A DNA stretch of 64,000 nucleotides from Sulfurovum sp. TSL6 (GTDB lineage: Bacteria; Campylobacterota; Campylobacteria; Campylobacterales; Sulfurovaceae). The stretch covers positions 868,001 through 932,000 of the forward strand of contig NZ_BPFJ01000001.1 of assembly GCF_019972115.1 (NCBI RefSeq). The letters are read 5' to 3'. Positions 43,186 to 48,531 of this stretch are shown piece by piece (position 1 is the first letter of the stretch; each line of letters opens with the position of its first letter). The notes beneath the pieces were generated by a model. The model made no database searches and was not told the DNA's origin. It worked only from the letters and a program-made list of their open reading frames with translations. Made by a program: the position numbers and the translations under genes.

Positions 43186-45450
43186 TTATGACTTTAACTT
43201 TTCAGCCACTAGTTCATTCACCACTTGCGGGTTTGCTTTGCCCCCTGTGGCTTTGAGTACTTGTCCTACAAAGAAGCCTAATAATTTTGTATTTCCTGCT
43301 TTGAACTTTTCAACATTATCCGGATTTTTTGCAATCACTTCATCAATAATAGGTAAGATTTGTGAAGGGTCACTTATCTGTACAAGCCCTTTATCTTCAA
43401 CGATCTGTGCCGGACTTTCTCCTGTTTTAGCCATCTCTTCAAATACTTGTTTGGCAATTTTACTTGAAATGGTCTCATCATCAACCATCTTAACAAGTTC
43501 ACCTATTTGTCTTGCGCTAAATTTCAGCTCATCTGCTTGTTTCTCTTTGAACTCTCTGGCTACTTCATTGGCAACGATGTTAGCGATTGTTACAGGACTA
43601 TTGTTTACAGATAGAGCCGCTTCATAAAATGATGAAAGTTGTTCATCTCTAGCTAAAATATCAGCAACCATGTCATTTAGTTTTAGCTCAGTAGTGTACT
43701 TATCAAACAGTGCTTGTTCAGCTTCACTCATAGGGGATACTTCACCATCTATTTGCACTTGTTTAGCTTGAGGTTTACGTTCACTCTTAGGTGATCCATC
43801 ATCTGCTTTTTTCTTTTTAGTATAAGAGTCTTTAAGAGCGACAATTTTATTGAACACCGGTGTTTCATCCGTATAATCTATAGGATCGGCATAGAAATAC
43901 CCCTGTCTTTCAAACTGGAATCTCTCATCAGGTTTCTCTGTGATGACCGCAGGCTCGATCAGCGCATTTTTGATCACTTTTAAAGAGTCTGGATTGATAT
44001 CTTCCAACCCTTCAGGGGCTTCATCTTTAAAGAGTCTGTCATAGAGTCTTAGTTCTACTCTTTTAGCCTGGGTAGCATCTACCCATTGGATAGCACTTTT
44101 AACCTTGATACCACTGGTATCTGAACCACTTTTAGAATCACGGTGATACGCTGCTTTTATCTCTATGATAGTGCCGTCAGCATCTTTGATCACTTCCTTA
44201 CAAGTGATGATATAAGCATGTCTAAGTCTGACCGGTTGCTCTGGTGTAAGACGGTAATAACCTTTTGGAGGGTTCTCCATAAAGTCATCACGCTCAATAT
44301 AGATCTCTTTTGAAAAAGGTATCTTTCTTGAACCCTCTTTAGGTACATCATGTGGGTAGTATGGCGCATCAAGTGCTTCTGAACCCTCATAATTTTCAAT
44401 GGTGACTTTAAGTGGGTCAAGTACACACATCACACGCGGTACTTTTGTATTGAGGTCATCTCTGATACAAAACTCGAGTTGAGAAACATCCACCGTTGAG
44501 TTTGCTTTAGCGATACCTATTTGATCACAGAAGTTTAGAATAGACTCTGGCGTATACCCTCTTCTTCTATATCCGGCAATTGTTGGCAATCTAGGGTCAT
44601 CCCAGCCGCTAACCCTTCCTTCATTCACTAATTCTAAAAGCAATCTTTTACTCATCACCGTATAGTTGATAGCAAGCCTTGCAAACTCATGCTGATAAGG
44701 TCTTGGCGGTTTTAGCCCAAGCGTATCAAGTACCCAATCATAAATATCACGGTTATTTTCAAACTCCAGTGTACAGATAGAATGCGTAATGCCTTCAATA
44801 TAGTCAGACAAGCAGTGACCAAAGTCATACATTGGGAAAATATGCCACGCATCGCCTGCTCTATAGTGGTGTGCGTGTCTGATACGATAGAGAAGCGGAT
44901 CTCTCATTTTCATATTCGCTGCGGACATATCGATCTTGGCGCGCAGGACGTGTTCACCGTCTTTAAACTCACCGTTTTTCATTCTTTCAAAAAGGTCCAG
45001 GTTTTCTTCAACACTGCGATCGGCATATTGAGAGCGTTTTCCCGCTTCGGTGACCGTTCCTCGATATTCACGGATCTCATCTTCACTGAGGCTATCCACG
45101 TATGCCTTGCCCATTTTAATAAGTGTAACAGCATAATCGTAGAGTTCAGGAAAATAGTCAGAAGTAAAACGTACACTATTATCCCATTCAAATCCAAGCC
45201 ACTGTACAGCATCTTTGAGTGCTTCAACATATTTCGTGTCTTCTGTAGTGGGGTTGGTATCATCCATTCTAAGGTTGCAGCGTCCCTGATAGTCACGTGC
45301 AATACCAAAATTTATAGCGATAGATTTGGCGTGTCCGATATGTGGGAAACCATTAGGCTCTGGAGGGAATCTTGTATGAACTTCTTTATACTTGCCTGAT
45401 TCTAAGTCCGCTTCAACGATAGTACGTAAAAAATCTTTGCTCTCACTCAT
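43186..45450 (-). CDS. glnS: Glutaminyl-tRNA synthetase with C-terminal YqeY/GatB-like tail
   Basis: Charges tRNA-Gln directly with glutamine. The 754 residues hold the class I catalytic core with an intact HIGH motif at 37-40 (PHIGHAKS) and VMSKR at 265-269, then the beta-barrel anticodon domain up to about 550. A lysine-rich linker (TKKKKADDG, about 552-575) leads to about 175 residues with the YqeY/GatB tail pattern (ANEVAREFKE, then AKQVFEEMAKTG and GFFVGQVLKATGGKANPQ). Such fusions are known in Deinococcus. It is divergent from a GluRS-like gene. Confidence 0.93.
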   Translation of the reverse strand: MSESKDFLRTIVEADLESGKYKEVHTRFPPEPNGFPHIGHAKSIAINFGIARDYQGRCNLRMDDTNPTTEDTKYVEALKDAVQWLGFEWDNSVRFTSDYFPELYDYAVTLIKMGKAYVDSLSEDEIREYRGTVTEAGKRSQYADRSVEENLDLFERMKNGEFKDGEHVLRAKIDMSAANMKMRDPLLYRIRHAHHYRAGDAWHIFPMYDFGHCLSDYIEGITHSICTLEFENNRDIYDWVLDTLGLKPPRPYQHEFARLAINYTVMSKRLLLELVNEGRVSGWDDPRLPTIAGYRRRGYTPESILNFCDQIGIAKANSTVDVSQLEFCIRDDLNTKVPRVMCVLDPLKVTIENYEGSEALDAPYYPHDVPKEGSRKIPFSKEIYIERDDFMENPPKGYYRLTPEQPVRLRHAYIITCKEVIKDADGTIIEIKAAYHRDSKSGSDTSGIKVKSAIQWVDATQAKRVELRLYDRLFKDEAPEGLEDINPDSLKVIKNALIEPAVITEKPDERFQFERQGYFYADPIDYTDETPVFNKIVALKDSYTKKKKADDGSPKSERKPQAKQVQIDGEVSPMSEAEQALFDKYTTELKLNDMVADILARDEQLSSFYEAALSVNNSPVTIANIVANEVAREFKEKQADELKFSARQIGELVKMVDDETISSKIAKQVFEEMAKTGESPAQIVEDKGLVQISDPSQILPIIDEVIAKNPDNVEKFKAGNTKLLGFFVGQVLKATGGKANPQVVNELVAEKLKS

Positions 45451-45626: not shown

Positions 45627-45632
45627 TATAAT
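45627..45632 (+). promoter_or_regulatory. Probable -10 box of the GluRS-like gene
   Basis: A perfect TATAAT 39 bases before the ATG at 45671, in the glnS/gltX divergent gap. TTGGAG, the ribosome binding site, lies about 10 bases before the ATG. Confidence 0.5.
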
Positions 45633-45670
45633 AACACTCTTATAAAGTCACAACTTTTGGAGTCAGATAA

Positions 45671-46978
45671 ATGCTTAGATTTGCCCCATCACCTACGGGT
45701 GATATGCATATAGAAAACCTTCGTGTAGCACTATTCAACTACATGACAGCCAGACAAAAAGATGTCAACTTCATCGTACGTATAGAAGATACGGATAAAG
45801 AGCGAAACATCACTGGCAAAGATACTGAGATCATGGAGATCCTTGAGAAGTTCGCGCTTCCTCACGACAGCGTCTCTCACCAGAGTGAGAACCTTCATAT
45901 ACACCAAACACTGGCGATCAGACTCCTTGAAGAGAAAAAAGCATTTGTCTGTACCTGTACACCCAAAGAGATCGAGGCAGACAGAGAAGAGGCAAAACAG
46001 AATAATGTGGCTTACAACTACAGCGGACGGTGTTCAACTGTAGGTGCAGAAGAGCTAAAAAAACTCAAAGAAGATAAGACACCATTTGTCGTGCGTATCA
46101 AAAAACCTGATGCACCGATAATCAACCATGACCTTATCAAGGGAGATATTGAGACTGCACCCAATGAAGTAGACTCTTTTGTCATTTTAAAAAGTGACGG
46201 AACACCTACTTATAACTTTGCTTGTGCCTGTGATGATATGATCTCAGGGATCAGTCTCATCATCCGTAGTGAGGACCACCTCTCAAACACTCCGAAACAA
46301 ACACATATCAAAACACTTCTTGGTTATGAGCAGGAGACAGAGTACGCACATTTGCCTATCATACTTAACAGTAAAGGTGAGAAGATGGATATGCAGGATG
46401 ATGCCAGCTCGATCAAGTGGCTTTTTGAGCAGGGATTCATACCCGATGCGATCGTCAACTACCTGATCTCACTTGGCAACGAAACACCCACAGAGATCTT
46501 TACCATGCCTGAGGCACTCGAATGGTTTGATCTGAGCAAACTTTCCAAATCACCTGTAAAGTTTGACATAGATACACTCCGTTTTATCAACGCAGAACAC
46601 CTTAAACGTCTGGATGACAAACTTCTCTCTACACTCTTTGGTTTTGCAGATGAAGACATCGGAAAACTGGCTAAGCTCTACCTTGAAGAGGCAAGTACGA
46701 TCAACGAACTTGAATCGAAGATCAACCCTATCTTTGCACCTAAAAATTTTGAAGGTGAATGGAGTGCCCAGATGCACACCCTAGAAGACATCATCCATAA
46801 TGCTCCTATGATAAATGACTTTAACGCATTTAAAGCACACCTTATGAAAGAGAGTGGACTGGAAGGGAAGAACTTCTTTACACCCTTAAGACTCATTCTT
46901 ACAGGTGCGGAACATGGACCTGAACTTTCCCAGATCTATTCGCTTATCAAACCATACTTACTGGAGGTAGCATCATGA
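45671..46978 (+). CDS. gltX: Glutamyl-tRNA synthetase family protein with altered catalytic motifs
   Basis: The 435 residues align along their length with GluRS: MLRFAPSPTGDMH at the start, RIEDTDKERN, SFVILKSDGTPTYNFAC (split: SFVILKSDG, PTYNFAC) and a C-terminal anticodon domain. However, the HIGH motif is HIEN (13-16) instead of HIGN, the RGEDH motif is RSEDH (200-203) and KMSKR is KMDMQ (238-242), losing the catalytic Lys of the loop. The ORF is intact and has a promoter and ribosome binding site. It may be a decayed paralogue or have another function. Another GluRS should exist elsewhere in the genome. Confidence 0.85.
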   Translation: MLRFAPSPTGDMHIENLRVALFNYMTARQKDVNFIVRIEDTDKERNITGKDTEIMEILEKFALPHDSVSHQSENLHIHQTLAIRLLEEKKAFVCTCTPKEIEADREEAKQNNVAYNYSGRCSTVGAEELKKLKEDKTPFVVRIKKPDAPIINHDLIKGDIETAPNEVDSFVILKSDGTPTYNFACACDDMISGISLIIRSEDHLSNTPKQTHIKTLLGYEQETEYAHLPIILNSKGEKMDMQDDASSIKWLFEQGFIPDAIVNYLISLGNETPTEIFTMPEALEWFDLSKLSKSPVKFDIDTLRFINAEHLKRLDDKLLSTLFGFADEDIGKLAKLYLEEASTINELESKINPIFAPKNFEGEWSAQMHTLEDIIHNAPMINDFNAFKAHLMKESGLEGKNFFTPLRLILTGAEHGPELSQIYSLIKPYLLEVAS

Positions 46979-47250
46979 ATGCTCTTATCTACGCCATTGT
47001 ACAAACTTTACACACAGTACTGAATCTTTATATCTGGATCGTGATCATTGCTGCACTGTTAAGTTTTGTACGACCTGATCCCTATAACCCTATCGTGCAG
47101 GTACTTCACCGTTTAACAGAACCTGTCCTAAGCTTTATCAGACGTAAAATGCCATTTGTTGTACTTTCAGGTATCGATCTCTCACCCTTGGTTGTGATCT
47201 TAGGTCTACAACTCATTGACAATTTTATGATGCGTGCTGTACTCGGATAA
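46975..47250 (+). CDS. YggT family membrane protein
   Basis: A 91-residue inner membrane protein with two hydrophobic segments (about 8-32 and 65-85). The family hallmark DPYNPIVQVLHRLTEPVLSFIRR is present (RPDPYNPIVQ, LTEPVLSFIR). The role is not settled; YggT relatives affect osmotic tolerance or cell division positioning. The ATG overlaps the GluRS-like stop by four bases (ATGA), so they are cotranscribed. Confidence 0.9.
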   Translation: MNALIYAIVQTLHTVLNLYIWIVIIAALLSFVRPDPYNPIVQVLHRLTEPVLSFIRRKMPFVVLSGIDLSPLVVILGLQLIDNFMMRAVLG

Positions 47251-47253
47251 TAC

Positions 47254-48531
47254 ATGCGCGTGAAGTTTCTTTTTCTTTTATTGCTGCTTGTACTCTCTAT
47301 GGGTACATCCACACTGCATGCGAAAAAGTTCACCTACGAACAGATCCACAAGATGCCAAAGAGTATAGAAAAAGATTACTATATCTGGCGTTTTCTTTCA
47401 CAGACCAACACTACAGCTGCTGAAGCCAAAAAGATCATCTATGAAGCAAGCAGACTCAATACAAAGCTTCGAAAAGCTTACAATAACAGAACCGGATCAA
47501 CTGTTGAACTCCCAAAGATCACAGCAACCGGAGAAACAAACAAAAACTGGAGAAGAAGAAGCAAAGCTCACAAAAGTTTCAAGCATGGGCTTGCTCTGAT
47601 GCAGCAAAGAAAGCCTAAGCAGGCAGCAGATTATTTTGAGGATGCTAGCAAAAATTATGTACAGCGTTATGACATAGACAAGTCTCTCTTCTGGCTCTAT
47701 TTGAGTACCAAAGAGGATGAATACATCAAACTTTTACGTGAGAGCTGTGATGTCAATATCTATACATTAATGGCAGCAGACACGATAAACGGAAGATATC
47801 CAAAAACCATTACAGAATCCCTTTGGAAAAGTAGTACATGGGGGTTTGATATCGAAGACCCTATCTGTTGGGCTAAAGTCAAACAGAAGATGCATTCAGG
47901 TGTTGACCTGGATGATCTGGCAGAGGATCATAAGTCTCAAGAAACGATCGGAATCTATACCTACCTCAAAGCCAAGGCCTGTAACTATACGGAGTCTTAC
48001 TTCCCCATGCCTTACCGTAAGGCCATGAAACATATGACACCGGAAAGACAAGCACTTATCTATGCTATAGCAAGACAAGAGAGTCGTTTTGTACCGGCTT
48101 CTGTCTCACGTTCCTTTGCATTGGGTATGATGCAGTTTATGCCATTTCTCATCGAACATGTTTCCAAAGAGAAAGGTGAGAAGATAGATTATGATGAGAT
48201 ATTCAATCCCTACAAGGCCATAGAGTATGCAGATTACCACCTTGACTATCTTACCAAGTACCTTTACCATCCACTTTTCATAGCCTATGCTTACAATGGA
48301 GGTATAGGCTTTACAAGAAGACATATAACTAAAAAACAAAACTTCAGAAGAGGTCCTTATGAACCCTATATGAGTATGGAAAAAATGGAAAACGAAGAAG
48401 CTAGAGAATATGGAAAAAAGGTTCTGGCAAATTATGTCATCTATCTCAATAAACTTGGGGTGACAACACGTATATTTCCACTTTTAAGCGTACTGGCCTC
48501 ACCTTCTGAAACCGATAAATTCAGGAAGTAA
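47254..48531 (+). CDS. slt: Soluble lytic murein transglycosylase
   Basis: Cleaves peptidoglycan glycan strands with 1,6-anhydro product formation in the periplasm. A signal peptide (about 1-23) precedes a helical superhelix domain and a C-terminal SLT domain. The catalytic glutamate is E276 in AIARQESRFV, followed by GMMQFMP and AYNGGIG, the typical three motifs. The 425 residues are shorter than E. coli Slt70. It starts three bases after the YggT stop, so the unit gltX-like, yggT, slt is one operon. Confidence 0.9.
   Translation: MRVKFLFLLLLLVLSMGTSTLHAKKFTYEQIHKMPKSIEKDYYIWRFLSQTNTTAAEAKKIIYEASRLNTKLRKAYNNRTGSTVELPKITATGETNKNWRRRSKAHKSFKHGLALMQQRKPKQAADYFEDASKNYVQRYDIDKSLFWLYLSTKEDEYIKLLRESCDVNIYTLMAADTINGRYPKTITESLWKSSTWGFDIEDPICWAKVKQKMHSGVDLDDLAEDHKSQETIGIYTYLKAKACNYTESYFPMPYRKAMKHMTPERQALIYAIARQESRFVPASVSRSFALGMMQFMPFLIEHVSKEKGEKIDYDEIFNPYKAIEYADYHLDYLTKYLYHPLFIAYAYNGGIGFTRRHITKKQNFRRGPYEPYMSMEKMENEEAREYGKKVLANYVIYLNKLGVTTRIFPLLSVLASPSETDKFRK

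Follow-up and report, generated by a model that had tools for sequence, protein, structure and literature searches.

A probable pseudoenzyme among the glutamyl-tRNA synthetases: gltX2 of Sulfurovum sp. TSL6 and its relatives in GlnRS-bearing Campylobacterota

The gene gltX2 of Sulfurovum sp. TSL6, located in the 64,000 nucleotides of DNA that we analysed (the window), has lost the catalytic motifs of a glutamyl-tRNA synthetase (GluRS) and probably encodes a folded pseudoenzyme without charging activity that is kept for a non-catalytic role. Beyond this single gene we propose, tentatively and with slightly less than even confidence, a class of convergently dead, probably tRNA-free proteins with a GluRS fold in GlnRS-bearing Campylobacterota, which would have gained a protein-level function or would always have had one. 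In the model that we favour the ancestral task of gltX2 would have been, as in Helicobacter, to supply Glu-tRNA-Gln for the amidotransferase GatCAB. With GlnRS present, comparison of the genomes shows that gltX2 repeatedly loses the ATP-binding signatures HIGH, RGEDH and KMSKS and that the altered GluRS2, which judging from its motifs would no longer charge any tRNA, is then held near full length by purifying selection. The altered protein probably binds tRNA poorly, because it is strongly acidic and many conserved basic residues are lost, and the preserved GluRS fold would serve a non-catalytic role, perhaps most likely by binding other proteins or as a structural element; a possible route would be the half comprising the stem contact and the anticodon domain, where many of the most invariant residues lie.

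The open reading frame is uninterrupted and its product of 435 amino acids matches TIGR00464 (glutamate--tRNA ligase) over residues 1–426 with 402.7 bits at a curated cut-off of 289.95. Together with the matches to PF00749 and Anticodon_2 this gives a full-length homology including the catalytic and the anticodon-binding domain, in agreement with a first, sequence-only reading of the DNA, which had described a full-length GluRS-like protein. The three altered motifs named there were found again in the alignment, with the correction that RSEDH occupies residues 199–203, as residues 200–203 are SEDH only (Table 1). HIEN and KMDMQ depart from the HIGH and KMSKS signatures of class I synthetases, and RSEDH lacks the G of RGEDH that is invariant among the intact GlnRS-less relatives of the family. 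At positions aligned to the glutamate pocket of known GluRS the protein keeps R3, A5, S7, E39, Y181, N182 and R199, and by its sequence it would represent an early stage of motif loss. In its nearest relative and nearest named isolate, Sulfurovum sp. AR (83% protein identity; L005/L223), the same sites carry changes of their own, namely SIED, RSEDQ and KMSTN. Chance or a sequencing error therefore appears unlikely as the source of the changes in the window gene, and the latter was rejected because close relatives differ otherwise at identical sites. From the promoter and ribosome binding site that had been read upstream of the gene, the GGAG stands, while the promoter is weak: there is a TATAAT at 45627–45632, and a promoter scan gave 7 promoter-like sites against 5.3 ± 2.4 in shuffled sequence, which is no excess.

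Table 1: Features in and around gltX2 (positions of the window).
Feature	Position	Strand	Basis
gltX2 (GluRS2 orthologue, catalytic motifs lost, 435 aa)	45671..46978	+	ORF; TIGR00464; synteny; omega
HIEN, residues 13-16, replacing HIGN (HIGH motif)	45707..45718	+	alignment
RSEDH, residues 199-203, replacing RGEDH	46265..46279	+	alignment
KMDMQ, residues 238-242, replacing KMSKR (KMSKS motif)	46382..46396	+	alignment
GGAG, likely ribosome binding site, 8 nt upstream of ATG	45659..45662	+	sequence
glnS, GlnRS with C-terminal YqeY/GatB domain	43186..45450	-	NF011291 1240 bits; domains; motifs
yggT-family membrane protein (presumed family)	46975..47250	+	ORF; synteny
Soluble lytic transglycosylase-like (slt, presumed function), third in gltX2-yggT-slt run	47254..48531	+	ORF; synteny in some relatives

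The genome of strain TSL6 (2.25 Mb, 7 contigs, 99.98% complete) contains three genes of the superfamily, encoding GluRS2, GluRS1 and GlnRS. A search for a second intact gltX, as the sequence-only reading had proposed, led to GluRS1 on contig 3 (C3:64681; L002) with HIGG, RGDDH and KLSKR at the corresponding sites, and this gene and the three motif changes together support the earlier claim that normal charging would be lost in GluRS2. The divergently oriented glnS lies about 220 bases from gltX2 and has intact PHIGH and VMSKR motifs; no tRNA-Gln was found within the window or the scanned loci. On the other side the stop of gltX2 overlaps the start of the next gene (ATGA), whose product we take to be a member of the yggT family and which is followed by a gene presumably encoding a soluble lytic transglycosylase-like protein. 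Among the 185 related loci with enough flank, yggT is located 3' of gltX2 on the same strand in 178, mostly overlapping or abutting. By this position before yggT and its placement among the family members in the tree the window gene falls into the gltX2/GluRS2 group, and we regard it as the gltX2 orthologue of Campylobacterota. The gene order gltX2-yggT-slt is also that of H. pylori (HP0643-HP0645). Since GlnRS makes Gln-tRNA-Gln directly, a GluRS2 specific for tRNA-Gln becomes redundant in a GlnRS-bearing genome, and tRNA-Gln is the only tRNA that is charged by the GluRS2 of H. pylori (reviewed in PMC3927822, which covers both this specificity and the HphiGN motif).

In order to relate the state of gltX2 to GlnRS, gltX2 was read in 191 genomes from the genus, the family (11 genera) and the order (56 genera surveyed), and GlnRS was scored in those genomes. 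The raw table, limited to genomes at least 90% complete, contains 6 intact and 74 altered gltX2 with GlnRS and 65 intact and 4 altered gltX2 without it (Fisher p = 9e-30, uncorrected for relatedness). A cleaned table of 144 well-assembled gltX2 genomes shows 72 altered and 6 intact genes in the presence of GlnRS and 0 altered and 66 intact genes in its absence; G147 was scored as intact here, G176 and the fragment G105 were left out, and so were, as a judgement, G060 and G093. The 4 altered genes without GlnRS in the raw table are those of G060, G093, G176 and G147. G147 has no GlnRS and carries RGDDH, a variant found in GluRS1 too. G060 has a piece resembling a GlnRS tail at a contig end, and G093 shows 7% contamination and has a sister (G077) that carries GlnRS. 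Also by judgement, the GlnRS-negative genomes G006, G020, G085 and G127, which have an altered gltX2 and are incomplete (72–80%), were set aside. In G176, a single-contig genome without GlnRS, gltX2 (L301, 846–2140) is frameshifted near residue 213 with the upstream motifs intact, possibly a sequencing error.

Alignment of the relatives at the motif sites, another check that had been proposed, showed HIGN (or H[LVT]GN), RG[ED]DH and K[ML]SKR in the well-assembled GlnRS-less relatives and, in the cleaned set, altered motifs only together with GlnRS. GlnRS and an intact gltX2 are found side by side in G018, G019, G027, G029, G039 and G042. That motif loss is seen only with GlnRS, and that GlnRS also occurs with an intact gltX2, fits with GlnRS having arrived first, and from this distribution a takeover by GlnRS is the likely reason for the motif loss. 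A possible mirror case is G039 (L062), where gltX2 is intact and glnS contains both a frameshift and an in-frame TAG, either through a reverse replacement or else an assembly error. Neither GlnRS nor GluRS2 was found in G157, G173, G194, G206 and G161 of the order survey, and their GluRS1 may be non-discriminating. As about ten GlnRS genomes yielded no gltX2 (including G061, G146, G166, G178, G180 and G252), the role of its product appears to be dispensable in some species. GatB occurs in 117 of the 120 genomes examined in the order, irrespective of an intact, a dead or a missing gltX2, and it is presumably retained for Asn-tRNA, because the TSL6 genome has no AsnRS above the cut-off. For a scaffold role of the dead protein for GatCAB, which we also considered, the occurrence of GatB is not informative, as it does not discriminate between the three states.

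To follow the history of the gene, the phylogenetic tree of gltX2 was built from the C-terminal part with the scored motifs excluded. It groups the sequences mostly by family, and intact and dead forms are intermixed in f1, f3, f7, f15 and f19. In the cleaned tree the altered state requires at least 12 changes and the deletion of the KMSKR loop, which is found in 64 of the 191 sequences, at least 22, both being approximate counts as many branches have modest support. Independent sister contrasts point the expected way in about 6 cases and the opposite way in 0 (median p 0.031), and motif loss has about 12 or more separate origins, spread over five families. As gltX2 mostly follows the family boundaries and remains in front of yggT, its history is best described as vertical inheritance with convergent loss. 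The long-branched sequences of G144, G172 and G233 (f3/f15) are placed inside f1, which may be a long-branch artefact. In the GlnRS tree, also with modest support, the members of f15 are scattered among f1, which suggests several transfers of GlnRS. Positions were mapped in 88 GlnRS genomes, and in 37 of them (f1, f15 and f19) GlnRS is located no more than 8 kb from gltX2, in differing orientations. A joint horizontal transfer of dead gltX2 and glnS is unlikely, since gltX2 mostly follows the families and stays before yggT, whereas glnS fails to follow them cleanly.

Residues were compared between 64 dead and 44 intact proteins (thinned sets), and G15, N16, T41, G200, D202, S205, K238, S240, K241, R242, S246 and F403 proved near-invariant in the intact and abandoned in the dead proteins, that is, the ATP-site signatures and a few other sites. 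The dead proteins keep much of the fold core, the cysteines C94-C96-C121, the FAxAxDDM helix and many residues of the stem contact and the anticodon domain, and M1, A20, G255, S320, G331, Y429 and E432 are invariant across 42 divergent dead proteins. Most of the conserved positions of dead proteins are shared with active GluRS2, and no new functional site was found among them. AlphaFold2 gave a pLDDT of 94.9 for the window protein and 92.7 for a loop-deleted relative of 382 amino acids, both being nearest to solved GluRS structures. The sequence-only reading had also allowed for a changed reaction, in which GluRS2 would still work as a ligase, with its active site rewired. The kept fold and the glutamate pocket, still largely there in the window protein, would agree with this, but G15, N16, G200, D202 and K238-R242 are freely variable or deleted and no conserved replacement motif takes their place. 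As the sites for ATP and glutamate have been lost in a different way each time, and as those 64 sequences lack the KMSKR loop, the relatives share no new active site, and we regard a changed reaction as highly improbable.

Dead and intact proteins also differ in charge. The mean net charge changes from -6 in intact to -16 in dead proteins of the Sulfurovaceae (p 4e-7) and from -4 to -16 in four other families (p 7e-6), and the neighbouring ORFs show no significant net-charge shift; the window protein has a net charge of -24. From the conserved basic residues of intact proteins 58% are kept in dead proteins, compared to 72% of the acidic ones. This convergent acidic shift, overall from about -5 to -16, suggests a weakened tRNA binding, and it also weakens the idea that dead GluRS2 might have retained a role as tRNA chaperone.

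Selection was analyzed with a pairwise codon model (own script) on non-overlapping close pairs. For 30 pairs of dead gltX2 omega ranged from 0.04 to 0.38 with a median of 0.16, each being significantly below 1 (LRT 15 or more), and for 25 intact pairs the median was 0.04 (0.05 for dS < 3). The medians per domain are 0.13–0.19 in dead versus 0.03–0.07 in intact genes. With an omega of 0.189 between the window gene and its nearest orthologue (Sulfurovum sp. AR, G026), the earlier view of retained use rather than simple decay is supported. In a pseudogene the frame would not be maintained and omega would be near 1, whereas the window gene has an open frame and an omega of 0.19; with a fold under purifying selection and no catalytic motifs the gene shows what is expected of a non-catalytic synthetase-like protein. 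A slow decay under relaxed selection after the replacement by GlnRS, with gltX2 as a pseudogene in progress, would explain that selection is relaxed about threefold to fourfold, that the catalytic domain shrinks, that gltX2 is gone from about ten GlnRS genomes and that one genome (G175) has no anticodon domain left, but omega is about 0.17 even in pairs already sharing the loop deletion, i.e. after the loss. Furthermore, about 670 nonsense changes would be expected under neutrality in 23 dead pairs and 0 were observed. The ORFs in this count were open frames by construction, but the searches, too, list the gltX2 matches without internal stops. We therefore consider such a decay improbable. The G175 protein (L286, 1655–2578), from a genome with GlnRS that consists of one large contig, is a dead GluRS2 cut to 313 amino acids. 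For GlnRS itself omega was 0.01–0.12 (seven pairs), and PHIGH and [VM]MSKR are present in all 52 GlnRS sequences read.

The main rival to a pseudoenzyme with a role of its own is a translational placeholder, a functionless product whose frame is translated for the coupled expression of yggT and slt, with selection only for a soluble and harmless protein. This would be in line with the overlapping or abutting stop and start of gltX2 and yggT in most genomes, the conserved downstream position of yggT (178/185), the frame-preserving indels and the loss of active site and basic surface while the fold core remains. However, the length of a placeholder would be unprotected, yet the dead proteins mostly have about 364–438 amino acids, even at 30–35% identity; omega is low in each domain, and the polar residues D259, S320, D327, K335, Y429 and E432 are nearly invariant. 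We hold a placeholder to be rather unlikely and favour a pseudoenzyme kept for a non-catalytic role.

A survey from 2014 already described the coexistence of GluRS2 and GlnRS in epsilonproteobacteria and, from the constant presence of GluRS2, suggested that it might be the GlnRS that does not function (PMC3927822). For the lineages with dead GluRS2 the motif data point the other way. No description of the motif loss in GluRS2 was found in the open-access literature searched. The lineages can be seen as a replicated natural experiment, in which a change from indirect to direct Gln-tRNA synthesis would be followed by repeated loss of an active site with the protein usually kept. Two questions become testable with them, namely which tRNA-Gln enzyme works in GlnRS-bearing Campylobacterota and whether a role that has nothing to do with tRNA can be the reason for keeping a synthetase. 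The results are also a warning for annotation, as family models still label such proteins 'glutamate--tRNA ligase' and the window protein exceeds the TIGR00464 cut-off.

Among known systems, the H. pylori GluRS2 shares with the window protein the orthologous group and the gltX2-yggT-slt neighbourhood, but H. pylori uses GluRS2 and GatCAB for tRNA-Gln, whereas the TSL6 genome has GlnRS and its GluRS2 no longer carries the HIGH, RGEDH and KMSKS motifs. GluQ-RS (YadB) is likewise a GluRS relative with a similar catalytic domain and has a role outside protein synthesis; it has no anticodon domain and keeps its active site, whereas the window protein keeps the domain and has lost the active site. 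As a GluQ-RS the window protein scores 190 against a cut-off of 277, below all GluQRS cut-offs, and it has 435 amino acids including the anticodon domain. Non-catalytic synthetase-like proteins of the HisZ type have a synthetase fold without aminoacylation; HisZ belongs to class II and has a known partner, in contrast to the class I window protein, and a synthetase fold without aminoacylation would be common to both. HisZ has been described as a regulator (PMC9734150), and other inactive synthetase relatives have been described as well (PMC9437257). The second GluRS of T. maritima is likewise reported to charge neither tRNA-Glu nor tRNA-Gln (PMC3927822), but there the inactive form is described as a gene duplicate with a non-discriminating GluRS as its partner, whereas the loss in Campylobacterota is recurrent and tied to GlnRS.
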